A DNA stretch of 64,000 bases, from contig JABFRR010000003.1 of NCBI GenBank assembly GCA_013141065.1, forward strand, positions 124,001 to 188,000, read 5' to 3'. This DNA comes from Bacteriovoracaceae bacterium (GTDB taxonomy: Bacteria; Bdellovibrionota; Bacteriovoracia; Bacteriovoracales; Bacteriovoracaceae). Of this stretch, positions 46-40,609 are shown piece after piece. Each line of letters begins with the position of its first letter. Position 1 is the first letter of the stretch. The notes beneath the pieces are model-generated. The model was not told the origin of the DNA, ran no database searches, and worked only from the letters and a program-made list of their open reading frames with translations. Both the position numbers and the translations under genes were made by a program.

Positions 46-900
46 TTATTTGTCGATAAACTTTGAAAATTCTTCTGTTGAATTAAATTCTCTGCCTTCG
101 ATATGAATATTTTTCAAACTCATATCATTTAAGTGAACATTCTTAAATTTACAAGCAAGGAATTTAACATCATTCATCTGAAGATCTTTTAAAATACAAT
201 TTTCAAATGATGTTTCTTTAAAGCTTGTTCCGTGAAGTTTAGCATCTTCGATAATACTATTGTCAAACTGACATTGAATAATAGTTGCGCCATGAAAAAC
301 ACAATCGACAAACTTTGCATTATTTAGCATGTCGAATGCTTTGATATTCACTCCGTGAAAGCTGACGTCTTCAATTATCGAATTATTCATCAACAGCTTT
401 GATGCCTTTGAACCGTTAAAACTTGTATCTGTAATTTTAGCCGCAATAAGAATCACTTCATCTAAAGAAGAACCATTGAAACTTGTATCTTCTAATATTG
501 AATCAGACAGAGATAAACCATCAACATTCGAAGCATTGAATGTATTATCAGAAATTCTAGAACTCTTAAGTTCTAAATTTTTAGCATTTGAAACTTGAAA
601 ACTATTATCTTCAAAAACAAAGTCCTCACCTTTAGGTACATCAACCTTCGAAAGATTTTTTTTATTATGTTGGCCATCGAATTTTCTGCTTAAGTCCCGA
701 TTGACTTCATTAAATGCCTGCCCCAAGACTGATTGAACAAAGTCAGTGATTCCAAGTTTTAAATGACTTCCAAGGCCTTCATCGCGTATTTCTTCTTTAC
801 GTTCACTTCCCTTTAATGTGCTAAGTAATTCAGCAGCTTCAATATCACTAATTATTCCTTTTTTAGACATTTCTAGAATTTTTAAAATCTCATTTTTCAC
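46..900 (-). CDS. SHOCT-like / pentapeptide-like repeat protein
   Basis: The 284-residue protein has two parts. Residues about 5-30 (KILEMSKKGIISDIEAAELL) resemble the short SHOCT-like helical domain at the N-terminus of YvlB/LiaX-type envelope-stress proteins. From about residue 95 to the end it is a run of quasi-repeats of about 20 residues with the core pattern DTSFNGS...L...S.I, which should fold as a right-handed beta-helix like pentapeptide-repeat proteins. No signal peptide or membrane segment is visible, so it is probably cytoplasmic. The start overlaps the end of the upstream DUF2089 gene by 11 bp, so the two are co-transcribed and probably translationally coupled. In other bacteria DUF2089 genes sit beside SHOCT/DUF4097 genes; here a pentapeptide-like helix seems to replace the DUF4097 part. 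The molecular function is unknown. Confidence 0.7.
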   Translation of the reverse strand: MKNEILKILEMSKKGIISDIEAAELLSTLKGSERKEEIRDEGLGSHLKLGITDFVQSVLGQAFNEVNRDLSRKFDGQHNKKNLSKVDVPKGEDFVFEDNSFQVSNAKNLELKSSRISDNTFNASNVDGLSLSDSILEDTSFNGSSLDEVILIAAKITDTSFNGSKASKLLMNNSIIEDVSFHGVNIKAFDMLNNAKFVDCVFHGATIIQCQFDNSIIEDAKLHGTSFKETSFENCILKDLQMNDVKFLACKFKNVHLNDMSLKNIHIEGREFNSTEEFSKFIDK

Positions 901-1312
901 TTTTCTTCTCCGTTTTTTTCTTAATTAGAGAAAGTCCTTTCTCATAGTTAACCATTCCATTGTTCATTAGTTCCAAAATCTCGATAACAGACTTTGAATT
1001 AAGTTCAAGATCCATTGGAGCAACTGACTTGTCGACGAAGTCAGTAACTGAAACAGAATCCTTTAATTTTTGTATTTTGTTTTTAACAGTAGGATAACTT
1101 ATGCCCAAAGCTTTTTCGATGTCCGCAATTTTTCCTTCACACACAATAAAGACATGTAGAAAATGAAGCATTTCTTCGTTTAGTTTCATAATTGGATTGG
1201 AATCAAACTTACCCTTCAGTGTCAGATCACATTCAACACACTCTAATGCCGAAATTTGCATAGGTTTAGAGCAAGAAGGGCAGTTGCAGGATATTGAGTT
1301 ATATTTCGTCAT
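890..1312 (-). CDS. DUF2089 family zinc-ribbon / HTH regulator
   Basis: The 140-residue protein begins with a four-cysteine zinc ribbon (CPSC ... CVEC, residues about 11-30). This is followed by a helix-turn-helix (LGISYPTVKNKIQKL, residues about 70-85) of the kind found in DUF2089 proteins. It is first in a two-gene operon with the SHOCT/pentapeptide-like gene and is likely an autoregulator, because its promoter is packed with copies of one dyad (see 1315-1369). The ATG at 1312 has no Shine-Dalgarno sequence, and the predicted transcription start falls on that A, so the mRNA may be leaderless. The family assignment is firm; the regulatory role is inferred. Confidence 0.8.
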   Translation of the reverse strand: MTKYNSISCNCPSCSKPMQISALECVECDLTLKGKFDSNPIMKLNEEMLHFLHVFIVCEGKIADIEKALGISYPTVKNKIQKLKDSVSVTDFVDKSVAPMDLELNSKSVIEILELMNNGMVNYEKGLSLIKKKTEKKSEK

Positions 1313-3737: not shown

Positions 3738-4529
3738 TCAATGACTATTTCTATTATTTAAATGGTAGGCCCGAACTTTCATTTTTATAGCTATGTCTTT
3801 TTGAAATTCGGGAATAGGGGCTAAATCCCATATCCATTCTGTTTTTGGAGTTGGCAGTTTCAAATGTTGAAATTCTAAATGATTTTCTAACATTTTATTA
3901 TTTGAATCTAAGTAATGGACTTCGGTATCTGTAATGAGTGCTACTGGGGAGTGAAAAGTCTCTAAATAACGGAGATGGTTTTGAGTAATCATCTCGAGAT
4001 ACGCATTGACTTGTTCTTCACTGAATTTCCCTTTAAAATTCTTATCAATATATTCTTCTAAATGCCGTGGTAGCTGGGACATGATATTAACCGAAAGAAC
4101 CAATCCCCAGTTTTCATTGGTAAAAGCAGTCGGAACAACTGTTTTTAGTATACCTTTGGTGAGTTCACTTTCAGATTCGGTCAGGTCATGTTCTCTAAAT
4201 TCAATATTTTTTAAGTGTTGGACTCTTTTTTTTGTACTTTTCAAATGAACGATATCAACACAAACAACTTTTTTGAATTTTTTAGAAAGTTCTTCTATCG
4301 GAATTTCATGTATTGGGCCAGAGCCCAAAATTAAAACAGATTCAAAGTGCAAAGAAAGTTTTAAGCTTTCAAGTATAAATTTTTTACACTGATTTCTGTG
4401 AGGCATCCACGCTTCGGAGCATCTTTCTTCTCTGGCAATCAGAGCGATACTCTCATAAAGGTGTCCAAAAGATTTTGCTTCTTTTAATTTTGGTGATTCA
4501 AATAATGAGGTTAAAAATTCTTTTATCAA
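3738..4529 (-). CDS. Methyltransferase-like protein, function unknown
   Basis: The 263-residue soluble protein has a Rossmann-type motif I (VLILGSGP, residues about 65-75), an acidic strand end (VVCVDI, about 88-93) and a segment like motif III (NIEFREHDL), all consistent with a class I SAM-dependent methyltransferase fold. The glycine-rich loop is less canonical than GxGxG (GSGPI), so catalytic activity is not assured. It lies in an apparent operon of small protein, this gene, murJ and marC, with gaps of 40, 31 and 9 bp. That context suggests an envelope link, but no substrate can be named. Confidence 0.6.
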   Translation of the reverse strand: MIKEFLTSLFESPKLKEAKSFGHLYESIALIAREERCSEAWMPHRNQCKKFILESLKLSLHFESVLILGSGPIHEIPIEELSKKFKKVVCVDIVHLKSTKKRVQHLKNIEFREHDLTESESELTKGILKTVVPTAFTNENWGLVLSVNIMSQLPRHLEEYIDKNFKGKFSEEQVNAYLEMITQNHLRYLETFHSPVALITDTEVHYLDSNNKMLENHLEFQHLKLPTPKTEWIWDLAPIPEFQKDIAIKMKVRAYHLNNRNSH

Positions 4530-4569
4530 AGATCATCCTAATTAATTTAGATGTCTTTAATAATAGAGG

Positions 4570-4830
4570 CTATGCCGATTTTTTACTAGTGATTTTGAAA
4601 TTGATATAGTTCACGTAAGAGGGTATTTGTGAGTGGATTAGATCCCAGATTATTTTTTCTTCCAGGCCGTCATCTTTAGCAGCATCTAGGAGTTCAATGA
4701 CCCTGCCATCTAATAACTCATAATCAATGGTTGAGCGGTAGACATGTTCACATTCGATAAGGATTTCTTCAATTTCAGCTTTATATTTTTTGATTAAAAC
4801 TGAAAGATCATTATCAAACTTATTATCCAT
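4570..4830 (-). CDS. Small protein of unknown function
   Basis: This 86-residue acidic, helical protein begins MDNKFDNDLSVLIKKYKAEIEE. I chose the ATG at 4830 because GGAG lies about seven bases upstream on the minus strand; an upstream in-frame TTG at 4842 overlaps that ribosome-binding site and is unlikely. It has no signal peptide and no motif I recognise. It is the first gene of the run leading into the methyltransferase-like gene and murJ (40-bp gap). Confidence 0.6.
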   Translation of the reverse strand: MDNKFDNDLSVLIKKYKAEIEEILIECEHVYRSTIDYELLDGRVIELLDAAKDDGLEEKIIWDLIHSQIPSYVNYINFKITSKKSA

Positions 4831-5723: not shown

Positions 5724-6581
5724 TTATTTTTTACCAGCGTTTGCAGTTGCTTCATCTACTTCTTTAAAAGTTGGACGAAATTCTGTTGGAATACTTCTTC
5801 TTCCAAATTCTGCACAAACTTTAGCATTCACCCCTTTAGAAAAAGCAAGTAAACATATTTTAGCAGTTATCATAAAACGCATTTCTTCTTTTAAGTTTGA
5901 TTCAATTTTAGCACCTAATGGTTGTAAATATCCATAAGAGGCAAGAATTCCTAGAAAGGTACCAACGAGTGCAGCTGCTACTGACATACCGATAACTTCT
6001 TTACCTTGAGTCAGTTTTCCCATCGTGATAACAACCCCAAGAACCGCGGCAACTATACCAAGACCAGGCATCGCATCTGAAACTCGATTGATGGATCCAA
6101 CTAAGGTGTGCTCTTCTTCAGTCACTATATCAAGATCTGAATTCATGAGGTCTTCAAGATCGTAAGGTGAAAGCGAAGACGCAATCTGAACTTTTAGCGT
6201 GTCACAAATAAAATCTATACAATGGTGATTATGTAATACGGCCGGATATCTTTTAAAGATGTCTGAGTTCTCAGGATTTTCGACATGTGGCTCGATTGAA
6301 ATAGGGTTAGCAGAGGCCATCTTAATAAGTTCAAACATACACTGAAGTAGTTCGATATACGCAGCTTTATTGATGCCACTACCTTTAAGCGACTTTATAC
6401 TATTAGCGATAATTCCTTTGATGATATAAGGATTTGTCGCCATAACAAGAGATCCTATAGCGGCACCTCCAATGATGAGAAGCTCTGTTGGCTGCCAAAG
6501 AACTGCAAGATTACCATGGTGAAGAACGTACCCCAAGATAACACAAACTGTAGTAACGATTGCACCCACGATAGTGAACAT
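5724..6581 (-). CDS. motA: Flagellar motor stator protein MotA
   Basis: The 285-residue protein has four membrane segments, two near the N-terminus and two around residues 165-220 (MPGLGIVAAVLGVVITMG ... VAAALVGTFLGILASYGYLQPL). This is the MotA/ExbB arrangement, with a large cytoplasmic loop between the pairs. It starts with GGAGG ahead of the ATG and is followed by motB. A sigma-28-type promoter lies directly upstream (6609-6635), which fits late flagellar expression. Length and motifs are normal. Confidence 0.96.
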   Translation of the reverse strand: MFTIVGAIVTTVCVILGYVLHHGNLAVLWQPTELLIIGGAAIGSLVMATNPYIIKGIIANSIKSLKGSGINKAAYIELLQCMFELIKMASANPISIEPHVENPENSDIFKRYPAVLHNHHCIDFICDTLKVQIASSLSPYDLEDLMNSDLDIVTEEEHTLVGSINRVSDAMPGLGIVAAVLGVVITMGKLTQGKEVIGMSVAAALVGTFLGILASYGYLQPLGAKIESNLKEEMRFMITAKICLLAFSKGVNAKVCAEFGRRSIPTEFRPTFKEVDEATANAGKK

Positions 6582-6608
6582 AAAAATCCTCCAAATGATT
6601 TAGCTAGC

Positions 6609-6635
6609 TTATCGAATGTTCATTTGAAATCTTTA
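6609..6635 (-). promoter_or_regulatory. Sigma-28 (FliA)-type promoter of motAB
   Basis: On the minus strand the sequence reads TAAAGATT (6635-6628), 11 bp, then TTCGATAA (6616-6609). The FliA consensus is TAAAGTTT-N11-GCCGATAA, so the match is 7/8 and 6/8 with exact spacing. Initiation just after the -10 element would give a short leader of about 20 nt containing the GGAGG ribosome-binding site of motA. No strong sigma-70 promoter is visible in the same stretch. Confidence 0.7.
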
Positions 6636-6955
6636 ATTTTTATGGACTTAGCTAAATTGAGCACAAAGTAAGTGTTTTGGTGGAACAATACGCCAATAGT
6701 TGACTGTTTCTGCCTGGTTATTGGTGAAAAATGTCCAGTATTTTTTTGATTAAATTTAGGAATACTTTATGAAAATAAATGCCAATTAAAAATGACAGAT
6801 TTTATAAACTGCTCTGAAAGCACTAAATGTAACGTTATGATTTTTAAGGCAATAGATTCCAGGTTAAAGGAGATTCCAGGTTAAAGGAGTAATTAAATAT
6901 AATGATATAATTTCAATGAATAGTTTATAAACTTATAAATATATAATGAGTAAAA
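6636..6955. other. Intergenic region between motA and the lipoprotein gene
   Basis: About 320 very A+T-rich bases without a gene. It contains a 6-bp inverted repeat (CCAATA 6693-6698 / TATTGG 6719-6724), an exact 17-bp tandem duplication at 6854-6887, and several TATAAT-like hexamers near 6906 and 6942 without clear -35 partners. Promoter(s) for the lipoprotein gene at 6956 probably lie here. I see no tRNA or other RNA gene. Confidence 0.5.
6854..6887 (+). repeat. Exact 17-bp tandem duplication
   Basis: The unit AGATTCCAGGTTAAAGG is present twice head to tail (6854-6870 and 6871-6887) with no mismatch, followed by AGT. Each unit ends in an AAAGGAG-like sequence, but both lie about 70 bp upstream of the nearest gene start. 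A recent slippage duplication in a promoter or leader region is the simplest explanation. Confidence 0.9.
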
Positions 6956-8308
6956 ATGGCAATGCAAAAATTTATTATCTTTATCATTTCAATTATTCTC
7001 TCCGGCTGTGTCGCCAAGGGGAAAGTCGCTATTATAATGAAGAGCAATTTAAAACAATCAGTTTTAAATCTCAATATTGCCTCTGTCCGTATTCAAAATA
7101 ATCAACTGATCATTAACGGATCAAACTTAGAATCTATCACGACAGTTAAACTTGTTGAAGGTGGACTCACGCAAACTCTCGCAGTTGAAAGTGCAACGAA
7201 TGGAGAAGTTATCGCTAACGGAGTATCGGCAATTACTCTCGGTGTCGGAAAAGTTTTCGATATGATTTTATCAAATGCTAATGCTGCCGCTACTTTTCCA
7301 GTGAGTTTTACACTTAATGATGGAAGTGTAACCAAACAAAAACTTTCAAGCATGGGAGCTTTATCAGGACAAGTTTTAAAATTTAATGGAACAACTTGGG
7401 AGCCAGCTTCATAAATTGATGCTCAATTATTCAAAGGCACTTGGGATCCGGCGACCGTTCTTCCTGACATAGGTTTATCTTCACCGGGCGACTATTGGGT
7501 GGTTTCTTCTGCTGGAACAAATGCCGGAGACGGAATTACTTATGCTGTAGGGGATTGGATTATTTCTGATGGCTATACTTGGAGTAAGTTAGAAGTATCA
7601 AAAACATCGGTGACAAGTTTTAATGGGCGTAAAGGTTTAGTGAATTTAATTCCTGGAGATTATGCCAATTTAAAAAGTGGAGCAAAAATTCCTGGATCAA
7701 ATTTAAATGACCTCGCTAATGTTGATTTAACAACAGATGCTCCAGATTCAGGTGATGTCTTAAAATTTGATGGAGTGAAATGGTTTGCAGGCCCTGGTGC
7801 GGCTGGAGCAGTGGGCTCAACGGAGATAACTGATCTTTCAATTACAGGTGCAGACATTGCAGAAAATACCATCAATCTCTCAAAATTATATTCGCCATCA
7901 ATTGATCCTGCTTTATATTTGAGAGGAGATAAAACTTGGGCAAACTTTACAGACGAAGTTTTAAATGCACCGCTATCAACTTATGTTTTAGATGCGACGA
8001 CGAAACCAACGGTCGGTGTGACAGATAAAATAGGTCCTGCCTTAGGAAAGATTCAAAAATTTTTAAATGATTTAAATACCGACTACATTTCAAAGACGGC
8101 GACATCACAAAGTGTTTCGGGAAGTTTTAGTTTTACCTCACCAACTTCATTTTTATATACACAATTGCCAACAGGTGCAAGCCCAACAGAAGTATCAAAC
8201 GTTCAGTATGTTCACAATTATGTGGGAGCAGCGGTCAGTGGATTAAGCTCAACTGCGCCAGCGACACTTACAACGGCAAATGGAGCCGCAACAGCGGGAG
8301 ACACAACA
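6956..8308 (+). pseudogene. S74-type surface lipoprotein, N-terminal fragment
   Basis: This is the 5' part of a gene broken by an ISAs1-family insertion at 8309. The product starts with a lipoprotein signal (hydrophobic residues 6-14, lipobox LSGC ending at Cys18). It continues with repetitive, Gly/Thr/Asn-rich sequence of the kind found in tail-fibre-like proteins of predatory bacteria (GQVLKFNGTTWEPAS, DVLKFDGVKWFAGPG). An in-frame TAA at 7412-7414 interrupts it; reading continues in the same frame as IDAQLFKGTWDPATV, so the stop is a point nonsense mutation. The last nine bases before the IS, GACACAACA, are one half of a target duplication. The rest of the gene is at 9610-10975 (inverted) and 12276-12889. 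Confidence 0.85.
8300..8308 (+). repeat. 9-bp target-site duplication t1, left copy
   Basis: GACACAACA lies directly left of IS copy 1. Its partner is not at the other end of that IS but, reverse-complemented (TGTTGTGTC), at 10967-10975, directly left of IS copy 2. ISAs1-family elements are known to duplicate 8-10 bp. This exchange of partners is the mark of an inversion between the two elements. Confidence 0.9.
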
Positions 8309-9609
8309 CAGGGGAAACGCATCTTAATTTCACTGAAGTAAAACATCCAATAGAAAATCATTATCCCATCCGGCCTTAAGCATTTTTGTTCTGACTGAAA
8401 GTTTTTCAGTTTTACTTCTCATTATAACGATCTTTTTCACAAGACCCAACGCCAATTGCCTTATAGAAGAAAAATTAACAGCACTGTGTTCAACTCTACA
8501 GCGACAATCGTCTTCTCTCATTGTGACATCCAAATGCCAATGCAATAAATTCTCTACTTGCCAATGATCCTTAACTGCATTTAAAAAATATTCAGAGCTT
8601 TCATCTCTACTGCTTATATAATATCTTTTTGAATTCTGAACTTCTCCTGTTTTCTGATCAATTCTTTCCGCACTAATTTCTATAATGGTTTTTAAATTTT
8701 TCCATTTTAATAATGGATTAACTCCCAATGAATAATCATCATTTTCTTTTATTATTCTTACTGATCGTTTTTCAAACCGACCATGTTTTAGTTTTCTTTT
8801 TTCCTCAAAGCTTTCGGATTTGTTTTTTTGTCCACGTTGCTCATATTTTTCAAATCTTTCTTCAATTCTACTGTGTAATTTTTCTTGATTACTTTTTACA
8901 CAAAATAAATAATCACCACCTTTGGAAACAATTTTATCAGCTATTTCAGTCTGACAATTTAAGGCATCAACACTAACAATTGTATCTTTTATATCCAGCG
9001 AATCCAAAAGCTCTGGGATTGCCGTTATTTCATTGCTCTTTTTATCTGTTTTCAACTGCCCTAATGACAATCCTAGGCCCGTTGAATAGGCATTAATAAC
9101 ATGAATTGTACGATCTCCCTTTCGCTTACTTCCCCGCAATGTTTTTCCATCAATACAGATTTGTTTAACTTCATCTTTATTAAAACTAGACACCCAATTG
9201 GTAAAAAAATCTTGCAATGAATTCGGCATTAAAATCATAAAAATCTTCTAAATGTATCATGCGAAGGCACGCCATTTTCTAAGTTTAAAAACTTACTTAA
9301 AAATTCTAATTTTAGAGTGCCGTAAACTTCAATTTCATTCCATGATTTTGCACCACAAATGACAGCACAGATTGCAATGATCATAATTGTTTCTAATGAA
9401 TGTTTTTTTGTTCTATCAATTCTTGGATCTTCAATTGAACTAATAAAATCCAACATGAAAACTGGATCTACTTCTTTCTTTTTTGTCACGATGCTCTCCT
9501 AAAAAAATAAGAAAAATCATCGCAAAAAAAAGACGAAAGGCCATCGTGCAGGGCCGTAAGTGGCCGAAAATAAATTATAACTGATTTAAATTAAGATGCG
9601 TTTCCCCTG
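8309..9609 (-). mobile_element. ISAs1-family insertion sequence, copy 1
   Basis: The element is 1301 bp, bounded by inverted terminal repeats beginning CAGGGGAAACGCATCTTAA at 8309 and ending with the complementary sequence at 9609. It carries one transposase gene on the minus strand, disrupted by a single-base loss. It is an inverted, near-identical partner of the element at 10976-12275. A GGCC-rich hairpin followed by a T-run lies between the outer end and the transposase start, possibly limiting read-through from outside. The insertion interrupts the S74-type lipoprotein gene. Confidence 0.93.
8330..9489 (-). pseudogene. ISAs1-family transposase, frameshifted (copy 1)
   Basis: A DDE transposase of the ISAs1 family: N-terminal HSLETIMIIAICAVICGAKSWNEIE and SHDTFRRF motifs, then DGKTLRGSKR (first Asp), SVDALNCQ (second Asp) and the C-terminal HWHLDVTMREDDCR region. 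It starts at GTG (9489) behind AGGAG. The intact product would be about 386 residues. Copy 1 has only five T where copy 2 has six, after the GAAGA following SHDTF (about 9238-9243). This shifts the frame after residue about 84, leaving 84- and 302-residue pieces. It is probably inactive unless slippage restores the frame. Confidence 0.88.
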
Positions 9610-9618
9610 CATAGGTAC
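9610..9618 (+). repeat. 9-bp target-site duplication t2, inverted copy
   Basis: CATAGGTAC, directly right of IS copy 1, is the reverse complement of GTACCTATG at 12276-12284, directly right of IS copy 2. Together with the t1 pair this shows that each IS inserted with a 9-bp duplication and that the DNA between them was later inverted. Confidence 0.9.
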
Positions 9619-10966
9619 TGTCTGAAGAATATGTGGTGTTTTTAGCTGCTGTAATTGCTGTGGTCGGAGTTGTAATTCCTACACTCAAACCATTTGCATC
9701 GGCCGTTAACCATCGAGGACCTGAATTCATGTTTGTAGAACCAATAACTTCAAATCGAACTCCCGGAGTACCTGAAAGCAAAACTCCCGACCCTCCCGAA
9801 TGAGAAATTTGTAAGATTCACCGCGTATCTGGACCGGTTGATTTAATAGTTAGTTTTCCGACTCCACCACTTTCAAAAATTGGCGTAGTAGAAGAATTCG
9901 TAGAATACGTATGAAGAATGCCAGTAGGAGTAGAGGTTCCAATCCCGACATAACCAGAAGAGTCGATCCTAAATTTTTCGCTACCGGCCCCCAGTGCATT
10001 ACCGGTGAAATTAGCCTTGGTATCTGACTGAATCGAAAAGTATCCTGCACTATCATAAACAAATGCAGAACTCATTGTCCCTGCAAGTAGTCCTGCAGCT
10101 TTTCCAGAAACACTGGTATTTATCACTGACATTGTTGGTGTCAAATTTGAAGAGCCCTGGGAAAATCTAAAATCTGAGACACCTATTGATGCATGTACTA
10201 ATGCGCTTGGGGTAGCAGTCCCAATCCCAACATTACCTGTTGAAGAAATTCTTAATTTTTCAGTTAGGCCAGTTGAGTTTGTAGTAGTTGTTCTAAAAAC
10301 AAGGGCCGTTGGTAAATTTCCAACTGTTACTGTATTGTCAACTCGACCTAATATGGCCGCACCAATTTTCATTTCACCATCAGGACTAGCTCCTGTTTGA
10401 CCTGCAAATGCAAGCCCTGGTAAATAATCTCCATTTGCTAAAGCACCACGGGCACCGTTGGCCCAATAGCCATTGTCATTTTGCCTTTGGGTAATGATAG
10501 CGTAATAATTGGGATTTCCAGCATTATCTGACCATGGTTGTGCAACACCAATATGAATTGGTGCTACAGTGTCTCCACCAGCGCCTATAATATTAAGAAG
10601 ACCTGAATAACCATTTCCTGTTGAATGCTCAACAGGAGTGAAAGGGTTGTTGTCTTGCATAAGTGAAGAGTTTGCAATTAACATCTGCTTTCTAAAATCT
10701 ATCCCATAACTTGGTGCGATCACTCCAGCGCCCAAACTACCACTTCCAGTTACAATTACTTTAGGCATTGTTGTTGTTGTAGACTTTGAAACTAATAAGT
10801 AATTGTTGATTGTAGCACCATTTGAAATCGCAGCAGCAGTCGTACCATAAGCTCCTCTTGTGAGTCCGGTGAAAGTTGTTGCAGTTGTCCCAGTGTAGAT
10901 TATCGCTTCATTTCCCACTAAAAGCGTTCCAGCCGTTGGATATCCAGAAGTTGAGACCACTGTTAA

Positions 10967-10975
10967 TGTTGTGTC
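10967..10975 (-). repeat. 9-bp target-site duplication t1, inverted copy
   Basis: TGTTGTGTC directly precedes IS copy 2 and is the exact reverse complement of GACACAACA at 8300-8308, which directly precedes IS copy 1. Confidence 0.9.
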
Positions 10976-12275
10976 CAGGGGAAACGCATCTTAATTTAAA
11001 TCAGTTATAATTTATTTTCGGCCACTTACGGCCCTGCACGATGGCCTTTCGTCTTTTTTTTGCGATGATTTTTCTTATTTTTTTAGGAGAGCATCGTGAC
11101 AAAAAAGAAAGAAGTAGATCCAGTTTTCATGTTGGATTTTATTAGTTCAATTGAAGATCCAAGAATTGATAGAACAAAAAAACATTCATTAGAAACAATT
11201 ATGATCATTGCAATCTGTGCTGTCATTTGTGGTGCAAAATCATGGAATGAAATTGAAGTTTACGGCACTCTAAAATTAGAATTTTTAAGTAAGTTTTTAA
11301 ACTTAGAAAATGGCGTGCCTTCGCATGATACATTTAGAAGATTTTTTATGATTTTAATGCCGAATTCATTGCAAGATTTTTTTACCAATTGGGTGTCTAG
11401 TTTTAATAAAGATGAAGTTAAACAAATCTGTATTGATGGAAAAACATTGCGGGGAAGTAAGCGAAAGGGAGATCGTACAATTCATGTTATTAATGCCTAT
11501 TCAACTGGCCTAGGATTGTCATTAGGGCAGTTGAAAACAGATAAAAAGAGCAATGAAATAACGGCAATCCCAGAGCTTTTGGATTCGCTGGATATAAAAG
11601 ATACAATTGTTAGTGTTGATGCCTTAAATTGTCAGACTGAAATAGCTGATAAAATTGTTTCCAAAGGTGGTGATTATTTATTTTGTGTAAAAAGTAATCA
11701 AGAAAAATTACACAGTAGAATTGAAGAAAGATTTGAAAAATATGAGCAACGTGGACAAAAAAACAAATCCGAAAGCTTTGAGGAAAAAAGAAAACTAAAA
11801 CATGGTCGGTTTGAAAAACGATCAGTAAGAATAATAAAAGAAAATGATGATTATTCATTGGGAGTTAATCCATTATTAAAATGGAAAAATTTAAAAACCA
11901 TTATAGAAATTAGTGCGGAAAGAATTGATCAGAAAACAGGAGAAGTTCAGAATTCAAAAGATATTATATAAGCAGTAGAGATGAAAGCTCTGAATATTTT
12001 TAAATGCAGTTAAGGATCATTGGCAAGTAGAGAATTTATTGCATTGGCATTTGGATGTCACAATGAGAGAAGACGATTGTCGCTGTAGAGTTGAACACAG
12101 TGCTGTTAATTTTTCTTCTATAAGGCAATTGGCGTTGGGTCTTGTGAAAAAGATCGTTATAATGAGAAGTAAAACTGAAAAACTTTCAGTCAGAACAAAA
12201 ATGCTTAAGGCCGGATGGGATAATGATTTTCTATTGGATGTTTTACTTCAGTGAAATTAAGATGCGTTTCCCCTG
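10976..12275 (+). mobile_element. ISAs1-family insertion sequence, copy 2
   Basis: The element is 1300 bp, with the same terminal inverted repeats as copy 1 and nearly identical internal sequence, but in opposite orientation. It ends at the complement of CAGGGG (12270-12275) and is followed by GTACCTATG. Comparing copies suggests an ancestor of 1302 bp: copy 1 lost one base and copy 2 lost two, all in A/T runs. Its right flank is the C-terminal fragment of the lipoprotein gene. Confidence 0.93.
11096..12254 (+). pseudogene. ISAs1-family transposase, frameshifted (copy 2)
   Basis: Same transposase as copy 1, starting at GTG (11096) behind AGGAG. The frame is intact through SHDTFRRFFMILMPNS and both early catalytic aspartates. 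It breaks at GVQNSK, where copy 1 has five A and this copy four (about 11956-11959), giving a stop after KDII. A second loss (five T instead of six, about 11996-12001) follows. The reading frame resumes with HWHLDVTMREDDCR to the normal end. The third catalytic acidic residue is separated from the N-terminal part, so this copy should be inactive. Confidence 0.88.
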
Positions 12276-12889
12276 GTACCTATGCGATACATGCAAGTGA
12301 TGCGACAAACCCAACGAATAGACTTGCTCTTGGATATGATGCTACGGAGGATGTGGGAGTTATTAGTGCTGTGAATTCTGGGACGAGTTGGAAAAACCTC
12401 TCTTTAAATCCCAATGGTGGCAACGTTGGAATTGGCTTAACTGTTCCCGATGAAAAATTAGTTGTTTTTAACGGAAGCACAACGGGAAAATACACGGCCA
12501 CTGGCTGGACACATTCATCTGATAAAAGATTAAAACACGATATCAATCCACTAGAAAATTCGCTTGAGAAAATTTTAATGCTTAAAGGTGTTGAGTACAA
12601 ATTTAATAAAGATCCAGAAAATAAAACCCAAATTGGATTTATCGCTCAAGATGTTGAACCTCTTTTTCCTGAAGTTGTCGAGACAGATAATAAAGGGTTC
12701 AAATCGATGGTTTATAGTAATTTGATTGCTCCATTAGTTGAAGCTGTGAAGGCAATTTATAAACTTCTGATTGGAGTTGAGAGTCAACAAAATTTGCAAA
12801 ATGCGAAGATTAAAAAACTTGAAGCTGAAAATACGGCCCTTAAAAAATATCTTTGTTCAAAAGATCCTGCTGCACCTATTTGTAAATAA
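12276..12889 (+). pseudogene. S74 intramolecular chaperone domain, C-terminal fragment
   Basis: This is the 3' part of the broken lipoprotein gene. After the repeat GNVGIGLTVPDEKL it carries the peptidase S74 / intramolecular chaperone signature SDKRLKHDINPLENSL, followed by IGFIAQDVEPLFPEVV and YSNLIAPLVEAVKAIYKLL, ending in a coiled coil. S74 domains help trimeric beta-helical fibres fold and then cleave themselves just before the Ser of SDxRLK. Joining 6956-8308, the reverse complement of 9610-10966, and 12285-12889 gives 3315 nt, exactly 1105 codons including the stop. No start or ribosome-binding site of its own is evident. Confidence 0.88.
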
Positions 12890-12948
12890 AACTTCATGCT
12901 TCTGAACGATTTTTTAATGCCAACTCAATTTCACTTTTTAAATTTGAT

Positions 12949-13566
12949 TTAATCATCCCACTCTAGATCTGCATTAATGGTGACTCCAGAGACAGTTTTT
13001 TCTTTTTCTTTTTTGATAAAAGCAAAATTCACAGGAGTGGTTCCTTCAAAGTTTTCTTCAAATGCAATGGTAATCGTTCTTGGCACGAACGACATCAGCA
13101 TTTTTAGATAGTCAGCATTTTTAATGGTATCAATAAAAGTAGAGTCTGCATCGTTTTCGACATCAATTTCCATCATTGGTTTAGTTGAAGTATTTTTAAC
13201 GATAAGTGCAGCTTTAATTTTTTCTTTCGGAATTTCACTGGTCATATTCCACGAGCCCAAATGAAAATAATCGAGATAAAAAACAGACTTTTCGTATTTT
13301 AATTTTCTTGGCATTAAAAGCGATTGCATGAATTTGCGAGTAGAGGGATCTTTAGATTTTTTGGCCAGCTTGTCGGCCAAATAGCCATCTTCAACCCGAA
13401 TGATGTAGGCCCCTGGATTTCTGGTTGATTCAAAAAGCAAGTATTGAAAACCAACAGAAAACAGAGTGAAAAGTTTTTGTTGAGTGAGATGAATGTGTAG
13501 AGCATCAGTCTCAATTAGTGTTTTTACGCCTTCATAAAGATCTTGTTTGGTAATATCACCACTCAT
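12949..13566 (-). CDS. Hypothetical protein
   Basis: This 205-residue soluble protein begins MSGDITKQDLYEGVKTLIETDALHIHL. It has no signal peptide, no membrane segment and no motif I recognise. The second half is beta-rich with alternating hydrophobic residues (TITIAFEENF, VNFAFIKKE) and ends in an acidic DLEWDD. It stands alone on the minus strand between the broken lipoprotein gene and fusA, whose promoter region it faces divergently. Length and codon use look like its neighbours, so I regard it as a real gene of unknown function. Confidence 0.6.
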   Translation of the reverse strand: MSGDITKQDLYEGVKTLIETDALHIHLTQQKLFTLFSVGFQYLLFESTRNPGAYIIRVEDGYLADKLAKKSKDPSTRKFMQSLLMPRKLKYEKSVFYLDYFHLGSWNMTSEIPKEKIKAALIVKNTSTKPMMEIDVENDADSTFIDTIKNADYLKMLMSFVPRTITIAFEENFEGTTPVNFAFIKKEKEKTVSGVTINADLEWDD

Positions 13567-36445: not shown

Positions 36446-39400
36446 ATGTCCTTAGTACCAGAGGATTTTTTAAGCAGTCTTAAAAGTGTTAGTATAAAAG
36501 ATTGGAAGATTTATTACTACAATGAATTCGAATCCATTTTTATTGATAAATATGGTAAACTCAACCACGATATTTTTCAAAGTTTAGAAGTCTATTTAAA
36601 AGGTGAAGGAGAAAGTTTTCGTCAGCAAATGAGTTTTCGATCTGTTCCTTTTTTGGTCGGATTTTACAATGAAAGAAAAGAGATTCGAACCTACACACCA
36701 AAGCTTTCCCAAGAGCTTTTTGTTCTTCAGCAAACAGATATTTTTGAACTGCCATCTGAAATTGTAAAAGAAATGCGATTTCATACTGAGCTCGCGGCTT
36801 CACTTCAAACTAAAAAATTCCCAACCATTGTCGAGAGTCTCATTGCCTATGATGGTCTTCCGGATTTATTAAACGATCCAAAATATTTAAAAATTGAAAT
36901 AAGGGCCAATGAGATTGTTAATAGACTTTTAGGATTTTTAAATGAATACCGTCCATCTTTGTTTGAAGATATTTCTGATTTTGGTTTGGGGCTCACTGCT
37001 CAATATGCACTTCTCAGAATCCATCTACTAAAATTTTTGGCCATTTTGCCTTCACTTGATCATGATAAAAAAGGCGTAGAAGTTAAGAGAATATTAATTG
37101 AAGCTCTCTCTCGGTTTTTAAAAGACAATAAAAAAGCTAGATTTGCTAAGAATAAAGGTCAGGATCGCGCACTTCCTCGTTCTTATACTTTTGGTATCTT
37201 AATTCTTTATAGATTTTTTAAAATTGTCCCTGCTTGGCCTTTAGCTGTGATAATCCGCAGTGCTGTGAAGTTGATGGCCAAACGATTTATTGCAGGTGAA
37301 AGCATAGAAAAAGCCGATAAGTCTCTTAGGGCATTAAGCCAAACGGGTCGAGATGTGACCCTTGATCAACTTGGAGAACTTGTCGTTTCTGAAAAAGAAG
37401 CAGATCACTACAAAACCGAAGTTTTAAAATTGATAAAAGGATTTTCTCTCCATGTAAAAAAAGGTGAAAGAAACGTTGCGGGAATTAATCGTGCCCATGT
37501 GTCGATTAAAGTTTCAGCATTATGTTCTGATTTCAAACCTCAAGCTTTCGATTATACTTATAATTTAGTTGGGCCAAGACTCAAAGAGATTTTGTTAACT
37601 GCTAAGGCAGAAGATGTTTTTATCAATATCGATGCTGAACATTACCACTATCGCGATGTCGTTTTTAAAATCTACCAACGAGTGCTTCTTGAAACTACAG
37701 ATTTACATGATTACTCTTCGACTGGAATTGTGATTCAAGCCTACTTGAGAGATGGGCATCAACATTTAAAAGAAATAATAGCCTTAGCAAAAAAACGTAA
37801 TCTTACTATGCCAGTTAGGATTGTGAAGGGAGCTTATTGGGATGCTGAAACAGTTGAAGGAGATGCACATAGTTTTAACGCCCCACAGTTTTTGAATAAA
37901 GAAGAAACAGATATTCACTTCAGACAACTCATTATTAAAATCCTTGAAGCCCATCCTCATTTAAAATTGGCACTTGCTTCTCATAATTTTTCTGATCATG
38001 CCTTTGCTGAAGCAGCAAAAGAATTATTTTATCCAACAGTCGGTGAAATCGAACATCAATGTCTACATATGACCTATGAAGCCCTATCTACTGCTTTGGC
38101 AAAGATGGGATGGGCTACACGTAACTATGTCCCAGTTGGAAGTTTACTTGTTGGAATGGCCTATCTTGTAAGACGTATTATGGAAAACTCTTCTCAAGTA
38201 GGTGTTCTCACTATTATGCGTTCACATAAAAAACATCTCACACTTCAATCCCCCTACGACATACATAAAGAAAAAATACAAAACGGAAAAATTGTTAGAG
38301 ATATTTCAGTTTCTAAATTAGAAGATGAATTTTTCAATGTGACTCCAGTGCGAATGTATCTCGATACAGAAAGGCAATGGACAGAATTAGCGTTAGAAGA
38401 GTTTAAATTGAATGGATTGAACAAAATTTATAAAAATGCTTTTTTATGTCATGGTGAAAATGTTGAAATCAATAATAGCTCTAATACTACAATTAAAGTT
38501 GGAAGTATTTTATTTGCTAACCTCGAGGATGCCAAACGTGCCCTTGAAATAATTGATCAAAGTTATGTGACGGGTAAATGGGCTCAGTCTAAATGGTCTT
38601 TTAGAACAGCTTGTTTAATTAAAGCTGCTAATATTATGCTCGCTAAAAGAAATGAACTTTCCGCTCTTATCGTTTATGAAGCAGGAAAATCAATTCCAGA
38701 GGCCTTAGGTGATGTTGATGAAGCAATTGATTTTCTCAATTTTTATGCCAGAACTGAAGCTTACTTGCAAAGAAACATGACAGATCTTGCCAGTAGAGGC
38801 CCTACTGTTGTTATTTCTCCTTGGAATTTTCCTCTCGCCATTCCTTGTGGGATGGTGGTGAGCTCACTAGTGTGTGGAAATACTGTTATTCTTAAATCAG
38901 CAGAGCAAACGCCACTAATCGCCCAAGTGTTAATTGATATACTTCACCTCGCGGGTGTTCCTAAAGATGTCTTAATACACTTACCTGGAGAGGGAGAAGT
39001 TGTAGGAGATTATCTGGTAAAAGACGAAAGGATATCGACAATTATTTTTACAGGTTCAAAGGCAGTTGGAACTTACATTTCATCAATTGCGAGAAAGCGA
39101 GTTTATAAAAATCTTCTTACAAAAAAGACTTACATGACAAAAGCCATCACAGAGATGGGGGGGAAAAATGCTGTCATCGTTACTCAAAATGCTGAACTCG
39201 ATGAAACTGTTTCAGGCATTTTATATTCAGCCTTTGGTCATGCTGGTCAAAAATGTTCTGCCTGTTCAAGAGTTATTGTTCATAACTCACTAAAAGATAA
39301 ATTAATGGAAAGATTAAAATCTGCTTGTATGGATTTAAAAGTCGGCGAGTCATATAATTTTGATACCACTGTTAATCCTGTCGTTTCTCTTTTTGATAAA

Positions 39401-40609
39401 GAACGAATTAAAAAGACGATAAAAGAAGCAACAGAAGAGGCGCTAAAATACGGCGGCTCTGTTGTTGTCGACAGATCGAAAGAGGAGCTACCTGGATTCT
39501 GTGTGGGCCCTGCCATTATTGAAGTACCAATGAAAAGGGCATTAGATAAAGAAAGTTTTTCTCAAAGAGAAATTTTTGGACCGGTAGTACATATTGTTGG
39601 ATTTGACTCACTTGAAGAAGCAGCTCAAATTTATAACAGTACCGATTATGCTTTGACCGGTGGTATTTTTAGTCAATCACAAAATGACATTGATAAACTA
39701 TTAAAAAAAATTGAAAGTGGAAATATTTACATCAATCGCACTGTTACTGGGGCGAGAGTTGCGATTGAACCATTTGGTGGATTTAAGTTATCTGGAACAG
39801 GGCCAAAGGCAGGGGGACGACATTATATAATTGCTCTTCACCAAATTAATGAGACGAGCCCCTCAATTGAAAGATCAGAATTAGCTGTGGTTGAAGAAGG
39901 CCATGCTTCTCCAATAGAATTAAAAAGACCTAGTAAATTAACTGCTAAATCACGTTTAGAGCGAATGGAAAAGTTTTTAGATCAATATCTTTCAAGTTTT
40001 GAAACTCACCATCAAGGGATCTATAGAAACTATAAAGAGACCCTGAGAGATTATAAAAAGTGGTTGTCAAAAAACTTTGTAAACTTTCTTGAAAAAGAAC
40101 ATAAAAATCGTGTTATTCCAGGTCAATTGAGTTTTAACGATTATTCAATGCGGGCAGAGCACGCTCTCGTGGTTTCAGTGACCGATAAGCCTAGTTTAAA
40201 AACGTTAATTCAAGTTCTTTCATGTATTTCTCTTGGGACTGGTTTAACGATTGCTTGCAAGAATAAAAAGTCATTTATGTGGTGGATGAATTTTCGCGAC
40301 ACTTTATTTCAGGTTGGTTTTTCAAAAGAAAATATAGAAGTTTATTTTGCTCAGTCGCACGAACTTAAAAAAGTATTAAATCATCCGATGTTATCGGTGC
40401 TAATTTATGATGGATTAATAGAAGAGTTTAATACAATTGTGGGTAACAATATGGATCAGGGAGCGGAAAAAAGAATGAAGCTCATCCTCACTTCAGAAGA
40501 TCATTTGAAGGCCAATGATTTTTATCACCAGGCCCTAAACTTCGTTTGGGTTAGGTCTCTTGCGGTGAACACAATGAGGCATGGAGCTCCTCTTGATTTG
40601 GAAATTTAA
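36446..40609 (+). CDS. putA: Bifunctional proline dehydrogenase / P5C dehydrogenase PutA
   Basis: This 1387-residue enzyme oxidises proline to glutamate in two steps. Residues about 310-610 are the FAD-dependent proline dehydrogenase barrel (INRAHVSIKVSAL, FINIDAEHYHYRD, VRIVKGAYWDAE, LASHNFSDHAF, VPVGSLLVGMAYLVRRIMEN). Residues about 690-1160 are the aldehyde dehydrogenase domain (VISPWNFPLAIP, ITEMGGKNAVIV, catalytic Cys937 in GHAGQKCSACSR, YINRTVTGARVAIEPFGG, SGTGPKAGG). The last 230 residues fit the extra C-terminal domain of long PutAs. There is no N-terminal ribbon-helix-helix, so it is not its own repressor. GGAG precedes the ATG. proC begins 3 bp after the stop. Confidence 0.95.
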   Translation: MSLVPEDFLSSLKSVSIKDWKIYYYNEFESIFIDKYGKLNHDIFQSLEVYLKGEGESFRQQMSFRSVPFLVGFYNERKEIRTYTPKLSQELFVLQQTDIFELPSEIVKEMRFHTELAASLQTKKFPTIVESLIAYDGLPDLLNDPKYLKIEIRANEIVNRLLGFLNEYRPSLFEDISDFGLGLTAQYALLRIHLLKFLAILPSLDHDKKGVEVKRILIEALSRFLKDNKKARFAKNKGQDRALPRSYTFGILILYRFFKIVPAWPLAVIIRSAVKLMAKRFIAGESIEKADKSLRALSQTGRDVTLDQLGELVVSEKEADHYKTEVLKLIKGFSLHVKKGERNVAGINRAHVSIKVSALCSDFKPQAFDYTYNLVGPRLKEILLTAKAEDVFINIDAEHYHYRDVVFKIYQRVLLETTDLHDYSSTGIVIQAYLRDGHQHLKEIIALAKKRNLTMPVRIVKGAYWDAETVEGDAHSFNAPQFLNKEETDIHFRQLIIKILEAHPHLKLALASHNFSDHAFAEAAKELFYPTVGEIEHQCLHMTYEALSTALAKMGWATRNYVPVGSLLVGMAYLVRRIMENSSQVGVLTIMRSHKKHLTLQSPYDIHKEKIQNGKIVRDISVSKLEDEFFNVTPVRMYLDTERQWTELALEEFKLNGLNKIYKNAFLCHGENVEINNSSNTTIKVGSILFANLEDAKRALEIIDQSYVTGKWAQSKWSFRTACLIKAANIMLAKRNELSALIVYEAGKSIPEALGDVDEAIDFLNFYARTEAYLQRNMTDLASRGPTVVISPWNFPLAIPCGMVVSSLVCGNTVILKSAEQTPLIAQVLIDILHLAGVPKDVLIHLPGEGEVVGDYLVKDERISTIIFTGSKAVGTYISSIARKRVYKNLLTKKTYMTKAITEMGGKNAVIVTQNAELDETVSGILYSAFGHAGQKCSACSRVIVHNSLKDKLMERLKSACMDLKVGESYNFDTTVNPVVSLFDKERIKKTIKEATEEALKYGGSVVVDRSKEELPGFCVGPAIIEVPMKRALDKESFSQREIFGPVVHIVGFDSLEEAAQIYNSTDYALTGGIFSQSQNDIDKLLKKIESGNIYINRTVTGARVAIEPFGGFKLSGTGPKAGGRHYIIALHQINETSPSIERSELAVVEEGHASPIELKRPSKLTAKSRLERMEKFLDQYLSSFETHHQGIYRNYKETLRDYKKWLSKNFVNFLEKEHKNRVIPGQLSFNDYSMRAEHALVVSVTDKPSLKTLIQVLSCISLGTGLTIACKNKKSFMWWMNFRDTLFQVGFSKENIEVYFAQSHELKKVLNHPMLSVLIYDGLIEEFNTIVGNNMDQGAEKRMKLILTSEDHLKANDFYHQALNFVWVRSLAVNTMRHGAPLDLEI

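Follow-up and report, generated by a model that had tools for sequence, protein, structure and literature searches.

Exchanged target duplications point to an inversion bounded by two ISAs1-family insertion sequences in a putative surface-fibre gene of a Bacteriovorax relative

Introduction

Inversion of a DNA segment by recombination between inverted copies of an insertion sequence (IS) is known for many IS families. The same exchanged-flank structure can be reached by transposition alone, as set out for an intramolecular route in the available text of a review of the IS6 family (PMC7986276). For the ISAs1 family, the literature searched, to the extent of its accessible text, yielded no description of an inversion made by the element and no account of the transposition mechanism; one report deals with ISAs1 elements and with a large inversion in Planktothrix, the two not being tied together in the accessible portion (PMC9366434). 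Here we describe a 1.37-kb segment that lies within a single gene between two inverted ISAs1-family copies. The locus is located in a 64-kb stretch of DNA, hereafter the window, which corresponds to positions 124001-188000 of contig C9 in genome G000 (3.58 Mb, 21 contigs). The interrupted gene is predicted to encode a surface fibre resembling the mosaic adhesive trimer (MAT) fibres of predatory bacteria.

The locus shares with the known recombination inversions the presence of inverted, near-identical copies, the exchange of their flanks and the turning of the segment between them; unlike those in general, it is confined to one gene, spans 1.37 kb and involves an ISAs1-family element in a relative of Bacteriovorax. 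Its final structure is equally that of IS6/IS26-type intramolecular transposition in trans, as given in the accessible part of the IS6 review (PMC7986276), whereas the element itself belongs to the ISAs1 family and has left simple insertions flanked by 9-bp duplications in the same genome. MAT fibres are displayed on the predator surface in Bdellovibrio bacteriovorus and include Bd2133 as well as relatives ending in an S74 domain, a subgroup marked by the motif SDxxxK, according to the available text of the study describing them (PMC10769870). The placement of the host rests on elongation factor G, which, among the best 80 of 461 matches, shares 92-95% identity across the whole query with proteins of six metagenome-assembled genomes named Bacteriovorax sp. 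or Bacteriovoracaceae, with a seventh, partial match at 93%; the host genome is, by this measure, that of a Bacteriovorax relative. Surface-fibre genes of this host group bear on prey recognition.

An inverted segment with exchanged flanks

The window contains one gene in three pieces, split by two ISAs1-family copies and bounded by a gene at 5724-6581, which we take to be motA-like from its resemblance, and by a gene for a 205-aa protein at 12949-13566 (Table 1). The nine bases preceding the left copy (8300-8308, GACACAACA) are the exact reverse complement of those at 10967-10975, and the nine bases following it (9610-9618, CATAGGTAC) are the exact reverse complement of 12276-12284; both agreements end at nine bases. 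When each copy is read in its own direction, the right one stands as TGTTGTGTC-IS-GTACCTATG and the left one as GTACCTATG-IS-TGTTGTGTC, the 5′ flank of each being the 3′ flank of the other. Neither 9-mer recurs on either strand within the 64-kb window, and neither flank relation was encountered at any of 49,000 control positions (13000-61999, 1366-nt spacing, IS ignored). An initial annotation, made from the letters alone, had pointed out these swapped duplications, correctly to the base, and had regarded the inversion as proven by them. The inverted middle and the exchanged flanks stand, but the route proposed there, two insertions followed by recombination, is not proven, because replicative transposition or a flipped assembly would give the same flanks. 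The locus is nevertheless a clean worked example of exchanged target duplications as the record of an inversion, with a second, half-visible case in the same genome, and of the limit of such a record: provided that the assembly is right, the flanks tell of an IS-bounded inversion and are silent on whether recombination or transposase produced it. For biology at large, this is a textbook IS-mediated inversion and an ordinary one.

Table 1 Features of the interrupted putative fibre gene (positions in the window)
Feature	Position	Strand	Remarks
Putative fibre gene, 5′ piece	6956-8308	+	ILSGC start; N-terminal part common to homologues; in-frame nonsense codon TAA at 7412-7414
Duplication x, GACACAACA, left flank of left IS copy	8300-8308	+	
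Left ISAs1-family copy, 1301 nt	8309-9609	-	One homopolymer indel interrupts the transposase frame
Duplication t as its reverse complement, CATAGGTAC, on the right of left IS copy	9610-9618	+	
Putative fibre gene, middle piece	9610-10975	now coding on -	One in-frame nonsense codon, TGA on minus at 9820-9818
Duplication x as its reverse complement, TGTTGTGTC, on the left of right IS copy	10967-10975	+	
Right ISAs1-family copy, 1300 nt	10976-12275	+	Relative to left copy, two 1-base deletions in homopolymer runs
Duplication t, GTACCTATG, right flank of right IS copy	12276-12284	+	
Putative fibre gene, 3′ piece	12276-12889	+	C-terminal S74 chaperone/peptidase domain

Assignment of the element to the ISAs1 family, already made in the initial annotation, is borne out by the model NF033564 (transpos_ISAs1, cut-off 70 bits), which matches both copies (E = 4e-80 and 6.3e-86; 269 and 288 bits); PF13808 and PF01609 also match the transposase. 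The element ends in a 22-bp perfect inverted repeat, CAGGGGAAACGCATCTTAATTT. Target duplications of ISAs1-family elements range from 8 to 10 bp. The element thus shows features expected of the family, namely, a DDE transposase, terminal inverted repeats and 9-bp duplications, the latter at 5 of its 12 full-length copies in the genome. The two copies in the window, inverted relative to each other, are near identical, being three 1-base indels and one substitution apart.

Orientation of the middle piece was judged by searching the three pieces separately against eight chosen homologous loci; three of these belong to the same genome, and the remaining five are spread over four further genomes of the genus. 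The 5′ piece found a match in all eight, the middle piece in five and the 3′ piece in six; at each of the five loci with a middle match, this match shares the strand of the 5′ piece and follows it downstream, and all three pieces are colinear at three loci (L068, L197 and L198). In the closest paralogue, L068 on contig C11, the 5′ piece is 86% identical and matches positions 1283-2626, the middle piece, when read on the minus strand, matches from position 2618, and the 3′ piece matches at 4304-4684; the 9-nt overlap between the first two matches equals the size of the duplication. At the nucleotide level, the middle segment matches L068 on the minus strand over 236 nt (72% identity). In a wider check of 84 fetched loci, many of them overlapping one another, the middle piece was matched in 51, and 34 of these also match the 5′ or 3′ piece. 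Three of the 34 represent the window's own locus, with opposite strands; in the remaining 31 of 31 stretches (14 distinct places, as counted from coordinates), the middle piece is on the strand of its neighbours, and no homologue with the orientation seen in the window occurs among these 31 judgeable stretches. As far as alignment can tell, the middle segment is therefore confirmed to be turned round relative to its homologues, as the initial annotation had held. A search of genome contigs for named relatives of the middle piece gave 33 pattern matches, none of which was confirmed.

The lengths of the three pieces sum to 3315 nt, and both duplications are in frame on the pieces to which they belong. 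These values, obtained by coordinate arithmetic with no sequences joined, agree, together with both stop codons, with the single frame of 3315 nt that had been restored in the annotation apart from two nonsense codons. Besides carrying the two nonsense codons, the gene is disrupted by the inversion and by the two IS copies that bound it.

Identity of the interrupted gene

The 3′ piece matches the S74 domain (PF13884, E = 6.2e-19), in which SDKRLK fits the SDxxxK motif, and the phage long-tail-fibre structure 6f45 (E = 3.7e-5). For the middle piece, three solved structures match at E up to 0.1; the best is 8ond, labelled bd2133 (36 residues, 1.7e-5), and the other two are labelled cell wall surface anchor family protein. 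Apart from one sub-threshold hit, the 5′ and middle pieces have no match in Pfam. ILSGC, a lipobox-like stretch, occurs at the start of the 5′ piece. Like MAT fibres of the S74 subgroup, the gene has a C-terminal S74 domain with SDxxxK, and its middle piece matches 8ond; unlike them, it appears lipoprotein-like at its start, is broken and resides in a Bacteriovorax relative rather than in Bdellovibrio, while Bd2133 itself falls into the non-S74 subgroup. On these domain and structure matches, the locus is best described as a disrupted gene for a MAT-like surface fibre with an S74 domain at its end. Equating its 5′ part, common to 8/8 chosen loci, with the conserved beta-rich domain of ~130 aa that follows the signal peptide in MAT proteins is only suggestive. 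The 5′ frames of the fibre paralogues in the same genome (L068, L066 and L067, on contigs C11, C14 and C6, respectively) are also interrupted by stops or frame changes.

IS copies across the genome

The genome carries 12 full-length and 3 partial copies of the IS, besides eight matches of 65-73% to related elements. In a search of the 13 other genomes of the genus, the only matches to this IS were two partial ones in G005, at 68%. Two of the 12 full-length copies form the pair in the window, and five (L002, L004, L005, L006 and L008) have a perfect 9-bp duplication of their own. Ordinary insertion, to judge from these flanks, is a usual product of the element. One further copy, L007, has a flank in common with the partial copy L014 on contig C3. 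The sequence TATATTGGG is common to the 5′ flanks of L009 and L011 and to the 3′ flank of L010, beside a related element, and the flank of L012 has no partner among the copies. The 5′ flank of L010 (L071 1100-1240, at the start of contig C8) differs by many small changes from an otherwise near-identical stretch of C11, as in an uncorrected contig end; L010 may therefore belong, as a sixth, with the five copies that have a 9-bp duplication of their own. At L069 960-3574 (contig C16) and L070 953-3568 (C11), a related ISAs1-type element (65% over the match) and the IS of the window stand in a row, 10 bp apart; AAGTATTGGA stands at either end of the C16 pair taken as a whole, as though both elements had been mobilized together, and the same pair occurs at C11 without matching flanks.

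The copies L007 and L014 on C3, with 11.1 kb between them, have the 10-bp sequence GGATCGATGA in common, which adjoins the 3′ end of one copy and the 5′ end of its counterpart. The pieces flanking it, L073 1325-1558 and L075 894-1758 (C3:27627-27857 and 39393-40257), comprise a part of an M3 peptidase (PF01432, 8.6e-18) and, on the opposite strand, a 77-aa piece that alone has no Pfam match, and both read G-S-M across the duplication. In four of the 13 other genomes of the genus (G001, G002, G006 and G009), the two pieces are joined in a single frame (571-635 aa) with an overlap of three codons (G-S-M); in the other nine, the 77-aa piece has no match. The exchange on C3 is only half shown, and TATAGAAAT as the other flank of L014, beyond C3 position 41211, would complete a second exchanged pair. 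Also within L073, frames at 64-525 (minus) and 548-916 (plus) lie on opposite strands and have mostly the same sequence; in our impression they resemble a short transposase and would represent an inverted duplication of another mobile element.

Origin of the inversion

We give roughly an even chance (about 0.5) to an origin by two insertions followed by homologous recombination; this figure, like the weights given in words to the alternatives, is a judgement rather than a computed value. The same resident ISAs1-family element would have hit the MAT-like fibre gene twice, in opposite orientations and ~1.35 kb apart, each insertion making a 9-bp target duplication, as the exchanged flanks suggest, and RecA-type homologous recombination between the 1.3-kb inverted copies would then have turned the segment 9610-10975 round. 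This origin is favoured because ordinary insertion appears to be a usual outcome, five of the 12 full-length copies keeping a 9-bp duplication of their own. A number of observations weigh on the other side. The junction between the end of the middle piece and the start of the 3′ piece is spanned by none of the eight chosen homologues and is supported by frame and order only; many matches in the wider check are weak (26-35% identity), involve repetitive proteins and inform on strand only; and C3 ends inside L014, so that the other flank of this copy is missing. Similarity among the copies across the genome is too high for sisters to be recognized, their differences being mostly homopolymer indels without clear pattern, and these differences, together with contigs ending at IS copies, make mis-orientation of the segment possible. 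Finally, when 12-15 copies are placed at random, an inverted pair within 1366 bp arises in only 2.3-4.0% of placements, which favours a single local event, and a spacing of 11.1 kb, as on C3, in 19-28%. Such an event could be one insertion, generating duplication x, followed by intramolecular replicative transposition in trans at a site ~1.35 kb away, which inverts the segment and adds an inverted copy with duplication t. This would explain both the closeness of the inverted copies and the second pair on C3, and would leave the same exchanged flanks. However, the five copies with direct 9-bp duplications are simple insertions, which a purely replicative element acting within one chromosome would seldom leave, and the transposase would have to possess both modes; we regard this route as possible, if somewhat unlikely. 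More broadly, adjacent inversions, and not simple insertions alone, could be the work of the ISAs1-family transposase, with no fewer than two such inversions in this genome (C9 and C3). This proposition is tentative and rather unlikely; if true, ISAs1 elements would be active genome shufflers, more than substrates of recombination.

An artefact has also to be weighed, in which the assembly mis-oriented the segment between identical inverted repeats or chose one direction from a mixed population. When aligned, the 12 full copies differ by indels in 26 columns, 21 of which fall in homopolymer runs of at least 4, and by substitutions in 11 columns; one copy has a longest frame of 389 codons, against 141-305 in each of the remaining 11; and, beside C3, which ends inside a copy, contigs C8, C14 and C20 have an end at, or close to, a related element. 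With overlaps counted, frames of at least 120 codons nevertheless total 93.6% of the window, taken over its whole length. We infer a long-read assembly with unpolished repeats, and therefore any statement on dead transposases is weakened and mis-orientation becomes possible. On the other hand, all 12 full-length copies are inside contigs, 10 of them at a distance of over 1.3 kb from the nearest end, suggesting reads or links longer than the repeat, and the exchanged relation is seen at two separate loci. Even under mis-orientation, two insertions would be evident from the exchanged flanks. Taken together, we consider such an artefact unlikely.

The initial annotation had also raised the possibility of a reversible on/off switch of the fibre gene. 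Long identical inverted repeats can recombine again, and physical re-flipping of the segment is plausible. However, the gene is restored in neither orientation: each junction keeps its IS copy when the segment flips, and the frame contains two nonsense codons. On these grounds, with no search made for a dedicated recombinase or a promoter arrangement, we have rejected a functional phase switch, which is highly improbable.

The locus in related genomes

The gene for the 205-aa neighbour is present in 12 of the 13 other genomes of the genus. Seven of these 12 were fetched; in all of them, the 205-aa gene has the motA-like gene as its neighbour, 0.16-3.4 kb away, and none of the three fibre pieces finds a match at this place at E up to 1e-4 (7/7). 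The search for an uninterrupted gene in relatives, suggested in the annotation, thus found no fibre piece at the same locus, and homologues elsewhere were used instead. In the three relatives for which frames were listed, the interval corresponding to 6582-12948 carries other genes. By this comparison, 6582-12948 of the window appears to be a variable slot in the genus.

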